DNA of 64,000 nucleotides from Corynebacterium stationis (GTDB lineage Bacteria; Actinomycetota; Actinomycetes; Mycobacteriales; Mycobacteriaceae). This document shows, piece by piece, positions 6,266 to 36,891 of the stretch (positions are counted from its first letter, which is position 1; each line of letters begins with the position of its first letter). The translations under genes were made by a program, and so were the position numbers. A model generated the notes under the pieces. It was not told the origin of the DNA. It did no database searches and was given only the letters and a program-made list of their open reading frames with translations. The stretch lies in contig NZ_CP009251.1 of NCBI RefSeq assembly GCF_001941345.1, positions 2,744,768 through 2,808,767 of the forward strand, given 5' to 3'.

Positions 6266-8842
6266 GTGCGCCAAAGTTGGAAGATATTTACTCGTGACGT
6301 TAAACGCTTAGGACAAGTGCCCAAAGCGTGGATCATTTTAATTGGCTTGCTCTTTGTTCCAGCGTTATATTCTTGGTTCAACATTGCTGCCTTCTGGGAT
6401 CCTTATAGCAATACGCAAAACATTAAAGTTAGCGTAGTCAATGAGGATCTCGGAGGTGATTCTGAGACCATCGGTCACTTGGATGTCGGTAAGCAAATCA
6501 CCGAACAGCTGGCTGAGAATGATCAATTAGGCTGGCAGCTACAGGATGCTGACACCGCAGAAGATCAGCTGCGGCGAGGGGAAACCTACGCCAGCATTAT
6601 CATACCCAAGAACTTCACAGCGGATCTTCTGGCGATCACAGAAGGTACATTGACCCAGCCTACCTTGGAATACCGGGTCAATGAGAAATCCAGCGCCATC
6701 GCGCCGCAGATCACTGATACAGGTGCCACGGCCGTAGATCAGGCCATCACCGCTGCACTGAAACAAGAAATTGCCACTGCTGCAACGAAATCCATCAGCG
6801 ATGAGGGAAAATCTTTAGAAGATGCCATCCTGGATGCCCGCGACACCACGAATACATCATTCGGCGAAACCGCCGCGAATCTTCGATCCGCGCGCGGGGG
6901 ATTGGATGATTTTAAAGCCCGTCTGAGCGAGGCCGAGGCTTCAATGACTGGAGCTAAGGACACCGTCGCGCAAGTCGACCAGGCTCTTATCGAAGGTCAA
7001 GATGCCCTCGCGCAGGTTCAAGATCTAGCAGAGTCAATCCAAACCGAAGTCACCAACTTCACCGACCAGACCACCTCGGCTTTCGTCGATGGTACCACCG
7101 CCGTCGCGGAAGGCACCGCCAACGCGAATGCTTCCATCGCCGATATCAATGCCACCTTGCAGCAAACCAGCGGGCGCTTAGATACTGCAGGCCAGCAAAC
7201 TAACGATGCCATTCAGGCTGGTAAATCTGCCATCGAACAAGTCCAAGGCTTACTCAATGACAGCGCGCTAAGCCCCGAACTGGCAGCACCTTTAGAAGAC
7301 ACGCTGCAACGCTTGGAAGCCGGCAATGCCGCCAGCGAGCGCCTGCTGGGTGATGTCACTAGCTTGAATTCCGAGACTGCCGATACCGCCAATGCTATTT
7401 CTCAGGCCGCTGGTGCCATCGATTCAGCCGCGCAAGATACCAGCGCGGCTACACAAGCACTACGCGACGCCGTCGGCGATGGAATCCCGTCTTTAAATAG
7501 AACTTTGAGCAATCTCAGCACCGTCGCAGGTTCATTCGCTGGGTCTTTAGAAGGTCAACGAGCCACCCTCGGCGAGGCCAATAACCTCATCGATGGGGTG
7601 GTGTCACAGTTGGAATCCACCCGCAGCGCACTGGACGATTTTGATATCACCTTAGCTGGGTTAGAGGACGGCGTACGCGATGTCCGCAGCGATATCCTTG
7701 CGTTGACGGCAAGCTCCAATTCCGAAAAGCTCCAGACCATCACTGGCCTTAATTCCGATGAAATTGGCTCATTCTTTGCCGACCCAGTCACGATTAATAG
7801 CGAACCGGTCTATGAGGTCAACTCCTATGGTTCTGCTATGGCCGGGCTATTTACCAATCTTTCGCTATGGATTGGCGCCTTCATGCTCATCGTGGTCTTC
7901 CGCGTCGAAGTTGACACCGAAGGCTTCAAGCGCGTCACCGTTCCACAAGCCTATGTGGGACGATTCATCCTAATGGCGATTATGGTCGCGTTACAGGCCA
8001 TTATCGTTGCCGCAGGTAACCTGATCATCGGTGTGCAAACCGTCAATGCCTTGGCTTTCATCGGCACCGCCGTCCTAGTGGGCTTGGCATATCTAAGCAT
8101 CATCTATGCCTTAGCCTCCACTCTCGGGCTGGTGGGTAAGTTCATCGCCGTCTTGCTGGTCATCATGCAGATCCCCGGCGCATCAGGCCTTTATCCCATT
8201 GAGCTTCTGCCCGGATTCTTCAAGGCTATTTATCCTTTCCTCCCGTTTTCCTATGGCATTGACGCCTTGCGCGAAACCATTGGCGGTTTCTACGGTACGC
8301 ATTACCTGCAGTTCATGGGGATGCTCGCGCTCATGGGAGGCGTCGCCTTTTTCATCGGCATCATTCTGCGTAAAAACCTCGGGCATTTCAGCACAGTTTT
8401 TAATCATGAGATGGCGGAAAGCGAGCTCATCGAGTTCGAAAACGTTCAAGTTGTCGGCGATGGCTACCGCTTGGCCGACATCGTTCGCGCGTTGGAAGAT
8501 CGCGAAGGATTTGCCGAAAGCATCAAGAACGAAGCTGAAAGGTACACCCGTCGCATTCATGTCACCGCCGGCATTGGCGTGGTCGGAATCATCGCACTCA
8601 CCATTGCCGCTTGGGCGCTTCCCGATGCTAAGGCCCTTCTTTTGGGCTTGTGGACCGCCTGGACACTCTTGCTCATGGGCCTGGTGATTGCTTTCGATTA
8701 CATCCGTAAGTCGTTGAAACAATCCGAGGAAATTATTCAGATGGATGACCAAACTCTGCACAAGTCTGTTTCTGCCCAGGCCAGCGGACTTCACGCCATC
8801 GCGGCATCACCAGCTTCAGAGACTACGGAAGGGGAGAAATAA
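6266..8842 (+). CDS. YhgE/Pip-domain membrane protein (first of tandem pair)
   Basis: About 858 residues. One N-terminal membrane helix (KAWIILIGLLFVPALYSWFN) is followed by an external region of ~500 residues rich in Ala/Thr/Asp/Gln that looks like extended helical coiled coil. Then come about six membrane helices (from AMAGLFTNLSLWIGAFMLIV) and a final pair near the C-terminus. This is the YhgE/Pip (phage-infection-protein-like) layout, related to ABC-2-type exporter membrane domains; function is not well defined. The start is uncertain: in-frame TTG at 6221 or GTG at 6266; the GTG gives an N-terminus aligning with the second copy. The TAA overlaps the next ATG by one base, so the pair is translationally coupled. 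Confidence 0.85.
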   Translation: MRQSWKIFTRDVKRLGQVPKAWIILIGLLFVPALYSWFNIAAFWDPYSNTQNIKVSVVNEDLGGDSETIGHLDVGKQITEQLAENDQLGWQLQDADTAEDQLRRGETYASIIIPKNFTADLLAITEGTLTQPTLEYRVNEKSSAIAPQITDTGATAVDQAITAALKQEIATAATKSISDEGKSLEDAILDARDTTNTSFGETAANLRSARGGLDDFKARLSEAEASMTGAKDTVAQVDQALIEGQDALAQVQDLAESIQTEVTNFTDQTTSAFVDGTTAVAEGTANANASIADINATLQQTSGRLDTAGQQTNDAIQAGKSAIEQVQGLLNDSALSPELAAPLEDTLQRLEAGNAASERLLGDVTSLNSETADTANAISQAAGAIDSAAQDTSAATQALRDAVGDGIPSLNRTLSNLSTVAGSFAGSLEGQRATLGEANNLIDGVVSQLESTRSALDDFDITLAGLEDGVRDVRSDILALTASSNSEKLQTITGLNSDEIGSFFADPVTINSEPVYEVNSYGSAMAGLFTNLSLWIGAFMLIVVFRVEVDTEGFKRVTVPQAYVGRFILMAIMVALQAIIVAAGNLIIGVQTVNALAFIGTAVLVGLAYLSIIYALASTLGLVGKFIAVLLVIMQIPGASGLYPIELLPGFFKAIYPFLPFSYGIDALRETIGGFYGTHYLQFMGMLALMGGVAFFIGIILRKNLGHFSTVFNHEMAESELIEFENVQVVGDGYRLADIVRALEDREGFAESIKNEAERYTRRIHVTAGIGVVGIIALTIAAWALPDAKALLLGLWTAWTLLLMGLVIAFDYIRKSLKQSEEIIQMDDQTLHKSVSAQASGLHAIAASPASETTEGEK

Positions 8843-11007
8843 TGCGGGATGCCCTGTCTGTTGTTAAAAATGACTTCTCCAAAGTCCGCCGCAGTGTCAT
8901 GGCGACATGCCTGTTGCTCTTTCTTATCATCATTCCCCTGCTTTTTACGTGGTTTAACGTATTGGCTGCCTGGGATCCTTTCGGTAATACCAAAGACCTG
9001 AAGATTGCCGTCGCCAGTGAAGATGATGGCTACACCAGTGATTTCTTCCCCATCGAGGTCAATGCGGGAGACCAGGTCTTGTCGCAACTACGCGCGAATG
9101 AACAAATGGACTGGGTCATCACGAACCCCTCTGATGCCATTGAAGGAACCAAATCAGGGGAATACTACGCGTCAATTATCTTGCCCTCCACTTTCAGCGA
9201 TGACATGCTGACCTTTTACGCCGATGGTTCTCAGCCTGCCCAAATCGCGTTGCACACCAACGAGAAAAAGAATGCGCTAGCACCAACCATTGCTAATAAA
9301 GGCGCCGAGGGTATATCGGCTAATATTTCGGAGACTTTTACCCGCACCATTGGTGATGTCTCATTGGGATTGGTGACTTCCTTGTCTGATTTCTTAGACC
9401 AAGGTGACACTCAAGATGCACTCAGCCGTATTGAGGCACGTGCCGAAAATCTACAGTCTCAGCTACGCAATGGCGCGCGAACCGCGCGAACAATGGGCGA
9501 TTTAACGGAATCCGCTATCCCCCTGCTCGAAAGCGCTCAGCGTATTATTGATACCCCGAGGCCATCACTGCCTGACACCACTCGCGATGGCATCACGGAT
9601 ATATCTGCTTCTTCCGACGCCCTAGACGGTGCTTTATCTGCCACCCGCGAAAGCTATGCCATTGTCGGCGACCGCATCGATGCACTCTACGAAACAGCCA
9701 ACATTTCTCGAGAAACTCGTTCCGAAACGCTCAATACTTTGGCGAACAATGTCCAACTCAATATCAATGCTTACGAGGGTCTCAAGGACACCGTAAATAC
9801 CCGAATTCGCCCGCTAGCTCCGGCCGAAGCCGCGACCCTCACCGGTCAATTAGATGAGGCTATAGCTGCCCAAGAAAGCGTGCGTGATCGTCTGCGCGCT
9901 GCGTCGGATTCAGATAGCCCAGAACGTCCTGATTTCTCGTCGTTAGACCGGGCATCCAGCGCCATTGAGGATGTGCGAAACTCTGGCATTCGTGACCAAG
10001 TCAGTCAGCTGGCACAGACCCTGCGCGGCATCGGCGACACCATCGAATTGCCCGAAGGCGATATTCAGCTCAACACCGATTCCTTAGCAGGAGCGAGTGC
10101 AGCGCTTGACGATGTCGGTGCCACCCTAGACCAAAACGCGGATAGGCTCGACGACTTACTCGACCGGATAAACACCGCCAGCAGGACCGGCGATCTATCG
10201 GAGATCGCTGCAATTGTTGGCGATGATCCAGAAGCCTTTGCCCAAGCGCTTGCCGCCCCCGTGGAAGTAGAACGCCAAGCTATTTACCCTGTTGCTAGTT
10301 TTGGCGTAGGGATGGCTCCGCTGTACACCACTCTTGCGCTATGGGTTGGGGCACTCCTCGCTGCGGTCGCATTGCGCACCGATGTCGCAGCTAAGCTCAC
10401 CAAGCATCGCCCAAACCGCTTCGACGAGGAAGTAGACCTTGAAAACGAGACCGAAGACGACACGGCAGAGATTCCGTCCGAGGCACCAGAAGAACCTGAG
10501 GAGATCGGGCCATTCGCAAAGTACTTTGGGCGCTATGGCACCTTCGCGCTCGTTGGCCTTGCACAATCTACATTGTTAACCCTTGGCCTTATCTTCTTCG
10601 TTAAGCTCGAGCCAGCGCATCCTTTCCTGCTAGTACTGGCCGGCTGGGTCTCATCATGTATTTTCATGCTGTTGGTCTACGCATTAACAGTGGCTCTGAG
10701 TAATGCCGGTAAAGCATTGGCTGTATTCCTACTCGTCATACAAATCTCTAGCGCCGGTGGCTCCTACCCACTGCAACTTTTGCCGCACTGGTTCCAAAGC
10801 GTCAGCCCTTGGCTTCCGGCAACTTATTCCATCCGTGCATTCAGGTCGGCGCTCGCTGGCAGTTACGGTGCTGACTACTGGATTGCGCTAGCTATGCTGT
10901 TGCTCTTTGTCATCCCCGCTTTAATTCTCGGCGTGGTATTGCGCAAACCTTTGGCTAACTACACCTCGGGATTAAATAAAGCTCTGGCGAAGACCAAGAT
11001 GATGTAG
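8842..11007 (+). CDS. YhgE/Pip-domain membrane protein (second of tandem pair)
   Basis: A 721-residue paralogue of the preceding gene with the same plan: N-terminal helix ending LLFTWFNVLAAWDPFGNTKD, a long helical external domain, then about six membrane helices from about residue 490. The aligned segments WFN..A.WDPF/Y.NT.. and ASIILP/IP..F are shared by both. Unlike the first copy it carries an acidic cytoplasmic-type insert (EEVDLENETEDDTAE, about residues 530-555) between the first two C-terminal membrane helices. AAGGGGAG precedes the ATG. The 1-base overlap and shared architecture suggest the two proteins act together, perhaps as a heteromeric envelope complex (inference). Confidence 0.86.
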   Translation: MRDALSVVKNDFSKVRRSVMATCLLLFLIIIPLLFTWFNVLAAWDPFGNTKDLKIAVASEDDGYTSDFFPIEVNAGDQVLSQLRANEQMDWVITNPSDAIEGTKSGEYYASIILPSTFSDDMLTFYADGSQPAQIALHTNEKKNALAPTIANKGAEGISANISETFTRTIGDVSLGLVTSLSDFLDQGDTQDALSRIEARAENLQSQLRNGARTARTMGDLTESAIPLLESAQRIIDTPRPSLPDTTRDGITDISASSDALDGALSATRESYAIVGDRIDALYETANISRETRSETLNTLANNVQLNINAYEGLKDTVNTRIRPLAPAEAATLTGQLDEAIAAQESVRDRLRAASDSDSPERPDFSSLDRASSAIEDVRNSGIRDQVSQLAQTLRGIGDTIELPEGDIQLNTDSLAGASAALDDVGATLDQNADRLDDLLDRINTASRTGDLSEIAAIVGDDPEAFAQALAAPVEVERQAIYPVASFGVGMAPLYTTLALWVGALLAAVALRTDVAAKLTKHRPNRFDEEVDLENETEDDTAEIPSEAPEEPEEIGPFAKYFGRYGTFALVGLAQSTLLTLGLIFFVKLEPAHPFLLVLAGWVSSCIFMLLVYALTVALSNAGKALAVFLLVIQISSAGGSYPLQLLPHWFQSVSPWLPATYSIRAFRSALAGSYGADYWIALAMLLLFVIPALILGVVLRKPLANYTSGLNKALAKTKMM

Positions 11008-31977: not shown

Positions 31978-32574
31978 ATGAATAAGTCCGTAGCTATTAC
32001 CGCACTCGCCGTTTCCGCCCTTGCGTTAGCTTCCTGTTCTACGGAAGCGTCTAATGACGACAGCGCGGACAATGGCGCCATGACCCAAACCGCCACCCAG
32101 GAGTCTCCGGAAACCACGGAGGAGACCTCAGAGGAAACCTCTGAGACCACCAGCGCCGAAGAATCCAGCTCTGAAACAACGAACACCGCCGCATCGAGCT
32201 CCGGTCGATTCGATGAAGCCGCTCTCAAGAGTGAACTAGAAGGCATGGGGTACCAGTGCGATGACGATGATGACTGCACCAAGACCGAAGGCGCCATCAT
32301 CTACGACGTCGATATCGATGATGATTCCGTAGACGTTGAAGTCCAGGGCAATGACGATCTTGATCAGCACTTTGAAACCATCCTGACCGATGTTGGAACT
32401 GCATTCGGAGAGTATGACTTCGGTGGGGCATCGTGGGATGAAATCCAGACTTGGGGCATCGAGGCCGGGGAAGATGAGGAAACCGTTCTCGGAAATGTTG
32501 AGCTAGAGCATGACCGCGGGGAAGACGATGGAATCCCATCCCGCGATCTCAGCGTAGAGCTCATCGAAAGCTAA
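31978..32574 (+). CDS. putative lipoprotein with acidic Ser/Thr/Glu-rich linker
   Basis: 198 residues. The signal peptide ends with the lipobox ALASC (Cys20), so the mature protein is predicted to be anchored outside the membrane. Residues 21-80 are low-complexity Glu/Thr/Ser, typical of surface-protein linkers. The C-terminal ~115 residues are strongly acidic (DDDDDC, DVDIDDDSVDVEV) and contain a Cys pair (CDDDDDC). I do not recognise the family. GGAGAC precedes the ATG. Confidence 0.8.
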   Translation: MNKSVAITALAVSALALASCSTEASNDDSADNGAMTQTATQESPETTEETSEETSETTSAEESSSETTNTAASSSGRFDEAALKSELEGMGYQCDDDDDCTKTEGAIIYDVDIDDDSVDVEVQGNDDLDQHFETILTDVGTAFGEYDFGGASWDEIQTWGIEAGEDEETVLGNVELEHDRGEDDGIPSRDLSVELIES

Positions 32575-32631: not shown

Positions 32632-33372
32632 ATGTCCGCTAACCCTGTCCGTCCCAATTGTGCGCGTCCGCATTCTTGTTCTTTAGATGTCCGTCTGGAT
32701 GCCATGGCGCGTTCACCGCTTACACGTGAACTCAAGCCCGAAGAACATCTAGATCTGGATTCCTTCGTCACGTCGTGGGCGTGGTCGGAGGGTGATCCGC
32801 TCATGCTGGCAGGGCAGAAGGTATCGGGTTCTTATCTCGTTGTGGCAGGTCGAGTACGGGTAGTGCGCGATACTATCGATGGCCGTGAGATCACCGTCGA
32901 CATTGCCTCGCCAGGAGATATCATTGGACCGCTAGAGACGAATCCTTCGTATGCGGTGGATTCAGCCTGGGCAATGGAAACCACCTGTGCGTTGTACCTA
33001 CCTGCGGACCGTCTCGCAGAAGTCATCGCTAGACACCCGGCTTTGGCAGTAGCAATTGTGCAAATGCAACACACGCGATTGGCGCAAGCACGAGATAGAG
33101 ATGTCAATCAAAGCGCCAAGACCGTTGTGCAGCGCGTAGCTACCGTTCTGCTTAGGCTCGATGCCAAATTGGGGGACTTGCGCCCAGACGGCAACAGCTT
33201 GCTGCAAGTACGCCTTCGACGCGACGATATCGCCGGGATGGCTGGGACAACGCTCGAGTCCACCTCGCGGGCCATGTCGCAAATGAAAAAAGATGGACTC
33301 ATCGACTCTGGACGGGAGTGGGTGTCCATCATCGATGCCCAAGCATTAGAGCGCATTGTCGATGGTGAATAA
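32632..33372 (+). CDS. Crp/Fnr-family transcriptional regulator (Fnr-type recognition helix)
   Basis: 246 residues: cyclic-nucleotide-binding-like beta-roll (about 45-130) and C-terminal winged HTH (about 190-235). The recognition helix reads TLESTSRAMSQ, giving the E--SR pattern that in FNR reads TTGAT half-sites. FNR-type boxes precede the next two genes. The N-terminus has Cys10 and Cys16 (NCARPHSC), with a third at 119; the four-Cys set of E. coli FNR is absent, so classical [4Fe-4S] binding is doubtful, though redox or metal sensing is possible. The beta-roll lacks an obvious cAMP-binding RE-S motif. Confidence 0.87.
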   Translation: MSANPVRPNCARPHSCSLDVRLDAMARSPLTRELKPEEHLDLDSFVTSWAWSEGDPLMLAGQKVSGSYLVVAGRVRVVRDTIDGREITVDIASPGDIIGPLETNPSYAVDSAWAMETTCALYLPADRLAEVIARHPALAVAIVQMQHTRLAQARDRDVNQSAKTVVQRVATVLLRLDAKLGDLRPDGNSLLQVRLRRDDIAGMAGTTLESTSRAMSQMKKDGLIDSGREWVSIIDAQALERIVDGE

Positions 33373-33386
33373 CAAGTTCTACGCTC

Positions 33387-33402
33387 TTTGATCTGCGTCA
33401 AA
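33387..33402. promoter_or_regulatory. FNR-type box upstream of the HMA chaperone gene
   Basis: TTTGATCTGCGTCAAA contains TTGAT-N4-GTCAA, one mismatch from the FNR consensus TTGAT-N4-ATCAA, 72 bp before the gene. Confidence 0.7.
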
Positions 33403-33473
33403 GAACCTTTCCTTACTTCGTCCTAACGTAGTAATTGCAAGCACGAAGAGAAGTGAAAGGAAGCTGAGAAGCC

Positions 33474-33710
33474 ATGACCACCCCAACCGCATTGAAGAAG
33501 ACCACCCTGCGCTCTGATGAATTCACCTGCCCAAGCTGCATCGCGAAAATCGAGAATAAGCTACGCAGCCTCGATGGTGTGGAGTCTGCAGAGGTGAAGT
33601 TCTCCTCGGGCCGCATCCTTGTGGAACACGACCCCGAAAAGGCGAGTGTCCGCGACCTCGTCGACGCCGTGGCGGAAGTCGGATACACGGCTAAGCCATC
33701 CGCTATCTAA
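33474..33710 (+). CDS. heavy-metal-associated (HMA) domain metallochaperone
   Basis: 78 residues forming a single HMA domain. The metal-binding motif is FTCPSCIAKIENKL (Cys19 and Cys22), followed by the conserved VESAEVKFSSGRILVEHD and VAEVGYTAKPS. Such proteins pass Cu(I) or related soft metals to a P1B ATPase; the ATPase encoded next lacks its own N-terminal HMA domain, so this small protein may replace it. It lies between a Crp/Fnr gene and the ATPase gene and has an FNR-type box in front. Confidence 0.88.
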   Translation: MTTPTALKKTTLRSDEFTCPSCIAKIENKLRSLDGVESAEVKFSSGRILVEHDPEKASVRDLVDAVAEVGYTAKPSAI

Positions 33711-33763
33711 GCAACCACCGGGCAGTAAGCGGAGAAACCGCAATTACTGACCGCTCATTGCAC

Positions 33764-33799
33764 AGCCTGTTCCTGACCATCATCAGGAACAGGCTTTTT
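33764..33799 (+). terminator. terminator after HMA chaperone gene
   Basis: Perfect 13-bp stem (33764-33776 with 33783-33795), 6-base loop, then TTTTTG. It separates the chaperone transcript from the ATPase gene, which has its own box and promoter. Confidence 0.93.
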
Positions 33800-33842
33800 G
33801 TATTTGCGGTGCGCATACCAACGAAAAGCAGTATCGCGAACA

Positions 33843-33856
33843 TTGATCTGGATCAA
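33843..33856. promoter_or_regulatory. FNR-type box upstream of the P1B ATPase gene
   Basis: TTGATCTGGATCAA matches the FNR consensus TTGAT-N4-ATCAA exactly, about 75-90 bp before the start. Confidence 0.8.
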
Positions 33857-33929
33857 GGAACCCCAACTGCCTTCGCCATAACGTTAAAGGTGACATCACA
33901 ACACCAGTGAGGGAAGGAACTTGAGAACA

Positions 33930-35810
33930 ATGAAAACGTGGAAGACGTGGGGAGTGGTTGGCGTATCAGCGCTGCTGGTTGCGCTGTCCTGGTTAAGCCC
34001 CGCAGAATCACTCATCGCAGATGCTCTGGTGATTGCTGCTGCAGTTGTAGCAGGTTGGAATATCGCTATCTCCGCGATCCAGGCACTACGGATTAAGATG
34101 GTCTCGATCGATCTCTTGGTTGTCGTCGCCGCCATCGGCGCACTGTTTATCAACAACTATTGGGAATCCGCAGCCGTCACATTCCTCTTCGCCTTGGGTA
34201 AGACTTTGGAAAAGGCCACGATGAATCGCACCCGCAAGGCCTTGAGCGACTTGGTAGATTCCGCGCCGGAGACGGCAACGAAACTGCACGACGATGGCTC
34301 TACCGAGACGGTGGAAGTTTGGGAGCTGATGCCCGGGGAAAAGGTTCTGGTTCGCAATGGCGAACAAATCCCTGTGGACGGCCGGGTGATATCCGGATTC
34401 GCGGGAGTGGACGAAGCCAGCATTACCGGCGAGTCCGTTCCAGCAGAAAAATCTGAGGGCGCGGAAGTCTTCGCGGGAACCTGGCTACGCAGTGGCGTAC
34501 TCCGCGTCGAGGCCACAGCGGTGGGATCAGAATCCACCTTGGCGAAAATCATCCACCGCGTCGAAGACGCGCAGGACGATAAAGCAAAGACGCAGACATT
34601 TTTAGAGCGCTTTTCCAAGTGGTACACCCCGGGTGTCATGATCGCGGCGTTAGCGGTCGGCCTCATCACCCAAAACGTAGAACTGGCACTGACCTTGCTG
34701 GTTATCGCATGTCCAGGCGCTCTGGTTATCTCCATTCCAGTCTCCATCGTCGCCGGCATTGGTCGCTCGGCGAAAGATGGCGTACTTATCAAGGGTGGGG
34801 AATACCTGGAGGCCTCCGCGAAGGTGGACGCCGTTGTCGTCGATAAGACTGGCACCTTAACCAATGGACAACCAGAACTTACTGACGTCGAAGTACTCGA
34901 CCCTGCTTATACCGCCAACGAGGTTCTGCAGCTTGCTGCGCGCGCGGAAACCGCCTCCGAGCACCCGCTTGCCGATGCCATCATCCGCGGAGCCAAGACC
35001 CGCGGTCTAGAGGTGGAGCTCGTAGAAAGCGCACAACCAGTGATGGGTAAGGGGATTAGGGCTGAAGTTGATGGACACGCAGTCGCAGTTGGCTCCGCAG
35101 AGCTTCTCGATAAAACCCCTAACGAGGATCGCGTCCTGGAGTTAAATGCTCAGGGCAAGACCGCCATGTACGTCGGCGTCGATGGCCGTGCCATTGGCTT
35201 GGTCGCAGTTGCCGATACCATCCGCAGTGATGCACCTGCCGCCGTGAAGTCCTTACATGACAATGGCATCAAGGTTGTCATGGCAACTGGTGACGCCCAG
35301 CGTGTTGCCGAAAACGTTGCCCGCGAATTAGGTGTGGATGAAGTCCACGCCGAGATGATGCCGGAAGACAAGCTGGACTTGGTCAAGGAACTACAAAGCC
35401 GCGGCCACGTCGTGGCCATGGTCGGTGATGGCGTCAATGACACGCCAGCCCTGGCCCAAGCAGACATCGGTGTCGCCATGGGCGCGGCAGGCTCACCCGC
35501 CGCTATTGAAACCGCGGATATCGCGCTGATGGCAGATAAGCTACCACGCTTGCCCTATGCGCTACACCTGGCTCAACGCACCGTCCGAACCATGACGCTC
35601 AACATCGTCATCGCACTGGCAACCGTCGCAGTTCTGCTAGCAGGCGTGCTCCTGGGTGGCGTGACCATGTCCATTGGCATGTTGGTCCACGAGGCTAGTG
35701 TCCTCCTCGTCATTGGCATCGCGATGCTGCTTCTGCGCCCAGTGCTGAAGCCAGAAGTGACGAGCGAGAGTCCAGTTCCACGTGAAACACAAGAAGTCGC
35801 TGCAGCCTAG
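33930..35810 (+). CDS. P1B-type heavy-metal-translocating ATPase with CPG motif
   Basis: 626 residues, no N-terminal HMA domain. All P-type motifs are present: ITGESVPAEK, phosphorylation site VVDKTGTLTN, SEHPLADAI (the HP locus of heavy-metal pumps), ATGDAQ and MVGDGVNDTPALAQADIGVAMG. The metal-site motif in the sixth membrane helix is CPG (ACPGALVISIPVS, about residue 261), not the usual CPC, so metal specificity cannot be taken from standard rules. Start ATG 33930; an in-frame TTG at 33921 is closer to GGAAGGAAC. It forms a unit with the HMA chaperone and Crp/Fnr genes. The C-terminal tail is partly encoded by a parS site. Confidence 0.9.
   Translation: MKTWKTWGVVGVSALLVALSWLSPAESLIADALVIAAAVVAGWNIAISAIQALRIKMVSIDLLVVVAAIGALFINNYWESAAVTFLFALGKTLEKATMNRTRKALSDLVDSAPETATKLHDDGSTETVEVWELMPGEKVLVRNGEQIPVDGRVISGFAGVDEASITGESVPAEKSEGAEVFAGTWLRSGVLRVEATAVGSESTLAKIIHRVEDAQDDKAKTQTFLERFSKWYTPGVMIAALAVGLITQNVELALTLLVIACPGALVISIPVSIVAGIGRSAKDGVLIKGGEYLEASAKVDAVVVDKTGTLTNGQPELTDVEVLDPAYTANEVLQLAARAETASEHPLADAIIRGAKTRGLEVELVESAQPVMGKGIRAEVDGHAVAVGSAELLDKTPNEDRVLELNAQGKTAMYVGVDGRAIGLVAVADTIRSDAPAAVKSLHDNGIKVVMATGDAQRVAENVARELGVDEVHAEMMPEDKLDLVKELQSRGHVVAMVGDGVNDTPALAQADIGVAMGAAGSPAAIETADIALMADKLPRLPYALHLAQRTVRTMTLNIVIALATVAVLLAGVLLGGVTMSIGMLVHEASVLLVIGIAMLLLRPVLKPEVTSESPVPRETQEVAAA
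35774..35789. other. parS: parS site (in P1B ATPase gene)
   Basis: AGTTCCACGTGAAACA, consensus except the outermost base. Encodes Val-Pro-Arg-Glu-Thr in the non-conserved C-terminal tail. Confidence 0.82.
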
Positions 35811-35919: not shown

Positions 35920-36891
35920 ATGCTTGAGCGCTTGAAAAAGGTCGACCCACTTATTGTTTTGATTATCTCGGCGGTCATCATCGCCATTATCTTCCCGGCC
36001 CGAGGGCAGTTCGCCGAAGTGTTTTCAACACTGGTCAGTATCGCGATCGCGGTGTTGTTCTTTCTGTATGGCGCACGATTATCCACGCAAGAAGCGCTCA
36101 ATGGCCTAAAGCACTGGAAGCTGCATCTGACCATCTTGATGTTTACTTTCGTGCTCTTTCCCATCGTCGGGCTAGCCCTGCGGCCACTGACGTTATTTAT
36201 TACCGATGAGATGTACCTCGGTATTTTATTCCTCACCCTGGTTCCCTCAACCGTGCAGTCTTCGGTGGCATTTACCTCCATCGGTCGCGGCAATGTGGCC
36301 GGAGCAATCGTGGCCGCATCTGCATCTAACCTCGTCGGCGTTATCGCCACCCCAGTCCTAGTGATGCTCTTGATGAATTCCACTGGCGGAATCCACATCG
36401 ACGCCTCGGTCTTCGGCGAGATTGCGCTTCAACTTCTCGCACCGTTTATCTTTGGCCAGATCGTGCGCCCGTGGGTGAAGAATTTCGCAGCGAATAAAGC
36501 CACCAAAGTAGTCGACCGCGGCTCCATTGCCATGGTCGTCTACTCAGCTTTTTCCTCGGGCATGGTCTCCGGAGTGTGGGGGAAAATCTCTGTCGGAGAA
36601 GTTATCTTCCTCGTTGTCTTCTCCGCCGTGCTGGTCTGCTTCATGCTCTTTCTTACCCGCGTAATCAGCAAGCGCTTAGGTTTTAATCGGGGCGATACCA
36701 TCGCGGCGGAGTTTTGTGGTTCCAAGAAGTCTCTAGCAACGGGCTTGCCCATGGCATCGGTCATGTTTGGCTCGGGCGCCACACTAGGTCTGCTGATTTT
36801 GCCACTGATGATTTACCACCAAATTCAGTTGATGATCTGCTCATGGCTTGCCGCGCACTATGGCAAGGAAGAAACCGAGCCAGTGACTTAG
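35920..36891 (+). CDS. bile acid:sodium symporter-family transporter (YfeH-like)
   Basis: 323 residues with about 9-10 membrane helices. Motifs of the SBF-like/YfeH branch: LYGARLSTQEALNGLKHWKLH, LFLTLVPSTVQSSVAFTSIGRGN, ASASNLVGV and the late FCGSKKSLATGLPMASVMF. Despite the family name, bacterial members transport varied organic anions with Na+; the substrate is unknown. No strong ribosome binding site seen. Followed 15 bp later by a small unknown gene on the same strand. Confidence 0.88.
   Translation: MLERLKKVDPLIVLIISAVIIAIIFPARGQFAEVFSTLVSIAIAVLFFLYGARLSTQEALNGLKHWKLHLTILMFTFVLFPIVGLALRPLTLFITDEMYLGILFLTLVPSTVQSSVAFTSIGRGNVAGAIVAASASNLVGVIATPVLVMLLMNSTGGIHIDASVFGEIALQLLAPFIFGQIVRPWVKNFAANKATKVVDRGSIAMVVYSAFSSGMVSGVWGKISVGEVIFLVVFSAVLVCFMLFLTRVISKRLGFNRGDTIAAEFCGSKKSLATGLPMASVMFGSGATLGLLILPLMIYHQIQLMICSWLAAHYGKEETEPVT

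Follow-up and report, generated by a model that had tools for sequence, protein, structure and literature searches.

Positions 32,632 to 35,810 of a 64,000-nucleotide stretch of Corynebacterium stationis DNA (contig NZ_CP009251.1; the whole stretch is referred to as the window) encode a Crp/Fnr-family regulator, a small HMA-domain metallochaperone and a P1B-type ATPase whose fourth transmembrane segment (TM4) carries a Cys-Pro-Gly (CPG) motif (Table 1). The best explanation overall is a horizontally spread metal-export regulon under a dedicated Crp/Fnr activator, to which we assign a probability of roughly 0.55. The genes, the boxes in front of two of them, the fixed -10 spacing, the conservation and the co-occurrence are supported by sequence, and it is very probable that the regulator acts on the HMA gene and the pump gene through predicted class II promoters. 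Metal is the mildly favoured candidate for the direct signal of the regulator; DNA binding, activation, the metal signal, export and the identity of the metal (a divalent ion or Cu(I)) are what we infer from these data. A previous reading of the window from its letters (the sequence-only reading) had placed the regulator, two FNR boxes, the chaperone and the ATPase here, and all were recovered at those positions in the sequence, the open reading frames (ORFs) and the Pfam matches. Its interpretation as a whole is partly supported.

Behind both boxes the hexamer TAACGT begins exactly 36 nt past the box start, so that the box centre would lie at about -41.5 of the predicted transcription starts (near 33436 and 33891), the position from which FNR is known to act at class II promoters. 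The composite TTGAYNNNNRTCAA-N22-TANNNT matched the 2.86 Mb genome twice, both times at this locus, with 0 matches for the reversed control; no composite precedes the regulator gene in this genome. Among 99 distinct box contexts from the loci compared, a -10 pattern TAnnnT stood at +36 in 95 and at any other offset in no more than 7, the contexts being mutually related and 95/99 not to be read as a probability. The bare box, allowing one mismatch, had 4 matches in the window compared with 1.97 expected (12 of 100 shuffles reached 4) and 114 sites genome-wide, and exact boxes numbered 4 in the genome, the 3 outside the window all falling within long ORFs. Since the bare box is common, counting it was dropped as a test and the spacing of box and -10 element was used instead. 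The sequence-only reading was to be doubted if its boxes proved frequent genome-wide: frequent they are as bare boxes, but not when joined to the -10 element.

Across 151 genomes of the genus, with the regulator called at E<=1e-20 and the CPG ATPase at E<=1e-150, the regulator was present in 29. All 29 also carried the CPG ATPase, compared with 2 of the 122 others, and in those two (G116 and G147) a different FNR-like gene (∼26% identity) adjoins the pump. The composite promoter was found in 29/29 regulator genomes (66 sites) versus 11/122 others (12 sites), the latter including G116 and G147 (Fisher 2e-22, uncorrected for relatedness), and the reversed composite gave 5 matches in the 151 genomes. 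An HMA gene lay within 1.5 kb of the regulator in 24 of 30 regulator loci. In 5 of the 29 genomes the regulator and the pump are widely separated or sit on different contigs, and the composite still precedes the pump; the link therefore exceeds shared descent of one locus. The “compact unit” of the sequence-only reading is only partly right, given these five genomes and the other genes that carry the same promoter in relatives. Sequence comparison lends strong support to its proposal that the two genes are under the control of the regulator, through the conserved predicted class II promoters, the co-occurrence, the unlinked cases and the finding of only two Crp-type helix-turn-helix (HTH) proteins in the genome.

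Searching named genomes with the HMA alignment gave 293 confirmed loci, the best 80 of which were analysed. An 11/11 composite lay within 300 nt upstream of the HMA gene in 57 of these 80, and three more scored 10; mononucleotide shuffles reached 11/11 in 0 of 1600 cases. The other 20 of the 80, with scores of 8 or less, were 14 alphaproteobacteria (by record title), three Halomonas, two actinobacterial bins and one contig end of Nesterenkonia. After removal of near-copies, 37 of 55 loci scored 11 and 3 scored 10 (doublet-preserving shuffles at 11: 0/2750). Conservation of the composite extends across Actinomycetota and Bacillota, and two Burkholderiaceae reach 10/11. Close relatives occur in Rothia and Brevibacterium, and plasmids carry the unit as well. 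In Bacillota, 419 of 72,556 plasmid records match the HMA of a single contig. Upstream of the HMA gene in 18 plasmid or phage-collection regions, 11 scored 11/11 (four Actinomycetota, seven Bacillota). Four composite sites on a Listeria innocua plasmid stand before Dps, the regulator, HMA and the ATPase, and plasmid neighbours of the unit include arsenic, cadmium and copper genes. An unannotated record labelled as Listeria phage (L174, OR848339.1) carries plasmid-type genes by eye (Dps, Lgt, a metal pump, an ArsR-like gene) and is probably bacterial DNA.

The regulator belongs to the Crp/Fnr superfamily by its cNMP-binding domain, Crp-type HTH and CRP fold; for its AF2 model (mean pLDDT 93.3) the best PDB match was GlxR, with M. 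tuberculosis CRP also among the best. The recognition helix, T-L-E-S-T-S-R (E209-S-T-S212-R213), bears out the E--SR pattern described earlier and, together with the TTGAT boxes, places the protein in the FNR subfamily. These residues are kept among homologues (E209 114/115, S212 115/115, R213 114/115). The second Crp-type HTH match of the genome is a GlxR-like protein with a CRP-type helix (RETVNK), on which evidence GlxR was judged unlikely to bind the boxes. The GlxR/CRP class was rejected for the window regulator, which does not have a CRP-type recognition helix. In one genome (G094, locus L046) the regulator gene is split by ∼1.4 kb (matches 8077-8367 and 9807-10259, residues 1-97 and 96-246) in a manner resembling an insertion, with HMA, the ATPase and both composites present downstream.

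The sequence-only reading was also correct that the FNR four-cysteine set is absent and Cys10, Cys16 and Cys119 are present, having overlooked His14. Cys119 is invariant in 116/116 homologues, and C10 (70/71), H14 (70/71) and C16 (71/71) are kept in the rows that have the N-terminal stretch (45 of the 116 do not, perhaps from start calls or fragments), compared with a mean column identity of 64%. In the alignment Cys119 falls two residues before the C122 column of E. coli FNR. Two known classes were rejected on this pattern: classical FNR (4Fe-4S; three N-terminal Cys plus Cys122), in place of which C10, H14, C16 and C119 are found, and the FLP class, which has one N-terminal and one strand Cys only. 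Window-type regulators in HMA loci have H14, C16 and C119 in 37/37 rows, some of them near-copies. Nine regulators of another type in such loci all pair a single N-terminal Cys with a Cys some two residues past column 119, in the FNR C122 column. The six Bacillota plasmid regulators that were translated, with one N-terminal Cys before VPIF/VPLF and one strand Cys, have a His-rich N-terminus ahead of the first Cys and adjoin the same gene pair and promoters. Two sensor designs thus appear to serve one promoter type. The conserved Cys/His sets would fit metal binding best, a disulphide or Fe-S reading also being possible, and are in keeping with the earlier suggestion that the regulator may sense metal or redox state.

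The HMA protein has CPSC in 16/16 aligned sequences. It has the HMA domain itself, but a CopZ-type copper chaperone was rejected (NCBIfam CopZ 48.9 bits, cut-off 91). HMA domains of the CPSC type are usual for soft metals. The ATPase is of P1B type (TIGR01525 577 bits versus a cut-off of 346; DKTGT present); its start is most likely ATG 33930, with TTG 33921 as a possible alternative, and searches were run with the reading frame from 33951. The window genome gave nine P1B matches, and among the eight with a TM4 stretch CPG occurs in this ATPase alone; a second contig (53 kb; matches 32-41589), possibly a plasmid, carries three further P1B ATPases, one CPC and two SPC. Across the 80 loci, 76 of 83 ATPase ORFs scored were CPG, the remainder being 3 CPH, 1 SPC, 1 ambiguous and 2 without the stretch. 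A 30-protein tree, from which a partial ATPase (L229, 344 aa) was excluded, placed the 16 CPG rows on one side of a branch with support 99/97 and in 200/200 bootstrap trees. These rows group with ZntA and SPC pumps rather than with copper pumps (88/84), although this branch is not firm.

The late-TM motif in 77 CPG ORFs was HEA in 46, HQL in 12 (all alphaproteobacterial by record title), HEG in 6 and others in 8, and was not found in 5. Class P1B-2 (ZntA; CPC and D-x-G) was rejected for a pump with CPG and HEA, as was P1B-4 (SPC and HEGG/ST), CPG being accompanied by HEA in the window pump and by HEG in some relatives. The best solved relative is 7qbz, a “cadmium translocating P-type ATPase” that we take to be a P1B-4 pump. 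Based on the tree grouping and the late-TM motifs, a divalent ion is rated somewhat more likely than Cu(I) as the substrate; the CPSC chaperone argues for Cu(I) instead. Copper was not adopted as a sure substrate, as CueP and CPH pumps lie near some copies of the unit and iron-linked genes near others. The sequence-only reading had proposed soft-metal transport, and the late-TM motif, together with Dps, VIT, FetB and ZIP neighbours, may equally suggest iron or another divalent ion.

We propose that a metal ion would occupy a sensor site made of Cys10, His14 and Cys16 of the N-terminal loop and of Cys119, placed on the strand before the long dimer helix. The metal-loaded dimer would bind TTGAYNNNNRTCAA boxes centred at -41.5 and recruit RNA polymerase as a class II activator. 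Activation would turn on the HMA chaperone and the CPG-type P1B pump, which would then export the metal.

Table 1. Features of the regulator, chaperone and pump locus (window coordinates).
Feature	Position	Strand	Basis
Crp/Fnr-family regulator, 246 aa	32632..33372	+	Pfam PF00027 (cNMP_binding) and PF13545 (HTH_Crp_2)
Putative sensor motif C10-x3-H14-x-C16	32659..32679	+	homologue alignment
Cys119 codon, fourth candidate ligand	32986..32988	+	homologue alignment
FNR-type recognition residues E209, S212, R213	33256..33270	+	homologue alignment
FNR-type box 1, TTGATCTGCGTCAA, before HMA gene	33388..33401	+	1 mismatch to TTGAT-N4-ATCAA; conserved at orthologous loci
-10 element TAACGT, starts 36 nt from box 1 start	33424..33429	+	sequence pattern
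HMA-domain metallochaperone, 78 aa, metal motif CPSC	33474..33710	+	Pfam PF00403
FNR-type box 2, TTGATCTGGATCAA, before ATPase gene	33843..33856	+	exact match to TTGAT-N4-ATCAA
-10 element TAACGT, starts 36 nt from box 2 start	33879..33884	+	sequence pattern
P1B-type ATPase, CPG clade	33930..35810	+	TIGR01525 577 bits; clade support 99/97
ATPase TM4 motif Cys-Pro-Gly	34710..34718	+	motif in sequence
ATPase last-TM-region His-Glu-Ala, at place of HEG in P1B-4 pumps	35688..35696	+	motif in sequence

The unit is flanked in the window by an acidic lipoprotein-like gene (31978-32574) 5′ of the regulator, with matches in the nearest relatives only (L002, L031, L046), and directly 3′ of the ATPase by an SBF-like (DUF4137) transporter (35920-36891) without a composite, an order seen elsewhere only in L031 and L046. 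In alphaproteobacterial CPG pumps (L167, L168, L173; L120, L122, L123, L125, L126, L129, L131, L138-L140, L146 and L162) a late-TM motif of the VHQLS type replaces VHEAS, and their HMA genes have no FNR composite in front. An alphaproteobacterial plasmid copy has a LysR gene annotated alongside, and unannotated loci have LysR- or MarR-like neighbours as read from the DNA.

Additional composites and neighbours were found in relatives. In four corynebacteria (L212-L215) an additional composite stands in front of a gene for a 91-102 aa protein; one of these proteins (97 aa) partly matches the Fe-S-repair (RIC) family (39 bits versus a cut-off of 204.7, E 7.5e-10); for two of these proteins Pfam gave nothing over cut-off. 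On a C. marinum plasmid (L164), 11/11 composites with ATCAT and GTCAT as their box ends precede ZIP-family and quinone-oxidoreductase-like genes (6607-7407 and 7825-8745), and a VIT gene lies ∼7 kb from the C. marinum copy. A 105-aa protein of no known family (e.g. L164, 11640-11957), with two repeat-like halves and its own box, sits between HMA and the ATPase in 18 loci, several from the same genome. A 139-aa protein is encoded 3′ of HMA in records of Cellulosimicrobium, Cellulomonas, Isoptericola, Oerskovia and Ruania (L165, 13575-13994; L148-L151, L154-L156, L171). Neither small protein matched a Pfam family over its cut-off. A cupin gene was present in 15 loci, some of them near-copies. 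Lastly, two further extra composites, one in G094 and one in G116, stand before unrelated ORFs and may have arisen by chance.

Several of these results weigh against a metal-sensing activator of an export regulon. C10 is absent from 6 of the 37 window-type regulators. Eighteen of the 55 representative loci have no 11/11 composite (3 of them score 10). The same is true of 7 of the 18 plasmid or phage-collection regions, namely two Microbacterium plasmids (10/11), one Staphylococcus plasmid (9/11, the -10 element being one base nearer the box) and four alphaproteobacterial regions (7-9), and the Microbacterium and Staphylococcus plasmids fall short despite having a Crp/Fnr gene. Furthermore, Dps, FetB and VIT1/CCC1 among the targets or neighbours, the Fe-S-repair-like 97-aa protein under a composite, and the quinone-oxidoreductase-like enzyme and ZIP transporter as targets fit redox or iron stress as well.

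The last group of observations leads to the main competitor, a redox or Fe-S sensor in which C10, H14, C16 and C119 hold an Fe-S cluster (3 Cys and 1 His) or form a disulphide. The pump, a ferrous-iron or general divalent exporter, would be on in low oxygen, high iron or nitric oxide, when Fe(II) or damaged clusters release metal. We regard this account as possible, with clear reservations. The FNR-type recognition helix and boxes agree with it, as do the iron- and Fe-S-tied genes (Dps, FetB, VIT1/CCC1, the RIC-like protein and the VIT gene near the C. marinum copy) and the HEA/HEG late-TM motif, which is as in P1B-4 pumps; two-Cys Gram-positive FNR-like proteins are discussed as oxygen sensors in a passage of PMC5039431. 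However, the FNR four-Cys pattern is lacking and C119 is offset from FNR C122, and of the six relatives without C10, five retain only H14, C16 and C119 of the sensor set, which would leave a 4Fe-4S cluster short of ligands. A set of two composite sites genome-wide is also narrow for an oxygen regulator, and the CPSC-type HMA domain suggests a soft metal.

That the regulator is instead a constitutive or small-molecule-responsive (cyclic-nucleotide-like) activator with structural Cys/His residues seems improbable: its cNMP_binding domain and its top structural matches, the cAMP-binding GlxR and M. tuberculosis CRP, would be expected, but not a recognition helix of FNR rather than CRP type, nor an invariant C119 and nearly invariant C10, H14 and C16 over columns averaging 64% identity. 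Boxes that are chance, or bound by another protein such as GlxR, are hardly credible, since the abundance of the bare box (4 versus 1.97 expected in the window) is outweighed by the composite statistics, the conservation over Actinomycetota and Bacillota (10/11 in two Burkholderiaceae) and the fact that just one of the two Crp-type HTH proteins found has a recognition helix of FNR type.

Returning to the metal-export regulon, we tentatively suggest that the window regulator and its FLP-like counterparts could form a previously undescribed Crp/Fnr metalloregulator family, with two Cys/His designs on one DNA-binding module, driving CPG pumps and their own HMA chaperone from one class II grammar shared by Actinomycetota and Bacillota. 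If true, Crp/Fnr would join the known metal-sensor families (MerR, ArsR, CsoR, Fur and others), and a plasmid-travelling pump type would gain a role. Thanks to the unusual CPG motif and the fixed promoter grammar, two genes and two sites suffice for a direct test of metal specificity and sensing. Uncharacterised Crp/Fnr proteins of industrial corynebacteria and dairy bacteria may likewise gain a function.

By gene tag, C. glutamicum cg3291 and cg3292 are probable orthologues of the regulator and the chaperone. Passages that name them list cg3291 as “uncharacterized transcriptional regulator” (PMC8112011) and cg3292 as “copper chaperone” (PMC12113857) and report no function. The main text of a C. 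glutamicum copper study (PMC3140484) had 0 matches for cg3291, cg3292, cg329 and Crp; passages of PMC6356457 had no Fnr, Crp or Dps match, and those of PMC11124244 no Crp or cg329 match. CPG is absent from the motifs listed in passages of PMC9045314 and had 0 matches in those of PMC10654040. A table excerpt lists the same four genes on a plasmid of S. equorum under antibiotic stress (PMC9477809). An exact-word search of open-access full text found no paper describing the regulator, chaperone and CPG pump unit as metal-sensing, “Crp/Fnr” with its slash being unsearchable as such.

The CPG pumps are alike in overall sequence to P1B-2 (ZntA/CadA) and P1B-4 (CoaT/FrvA-like) pumps, the ZntA and SPC pumps being the neighbouring tree group, but carry CPG in place of CPC or SPC, show an HEA/HEG or HQ late-TM motif and lack a fused HMA domain. 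The regulator resembles FNR/ANR/FixK-type activators in fold, E--SR recognition helix, boxes of the FNR sequence TTGAT-N4-ATCAA and class II position. It differs in having C-x3-H-x-C and a Cys two residues from the C122 column rather than the four-Cys set, and FNR has a wide anaerobic regulon compared with two composite sites in the window genome. The Bacillota plasmid regulators, which adjoin the same HMA-ATPase pair, resemble the FLPs (L. casei Flp, L. lactis FlpA, S. suis FlpS), a likeness drawn from the two-Cys pattern. S. suis FlpS is reported in passages of PMC5039431 to activate the arginine deiminase system; replacement of its Cys129 left target expression unchanged, and cluster binding by such proteins is debated there. 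The window regulator, with its three Cys and one His, is unlike the FLPs, and the plasmid proteins differ from them by a His-rich N-terminus. Lastly, MerR, CsoR and ArsR metal export operons are alike in that a chaperone and a P1B pump adjoin a regulator of their own; they differ in that their regulator fold and operator are unrelated, and activation from a -41.5 site is predicted here.

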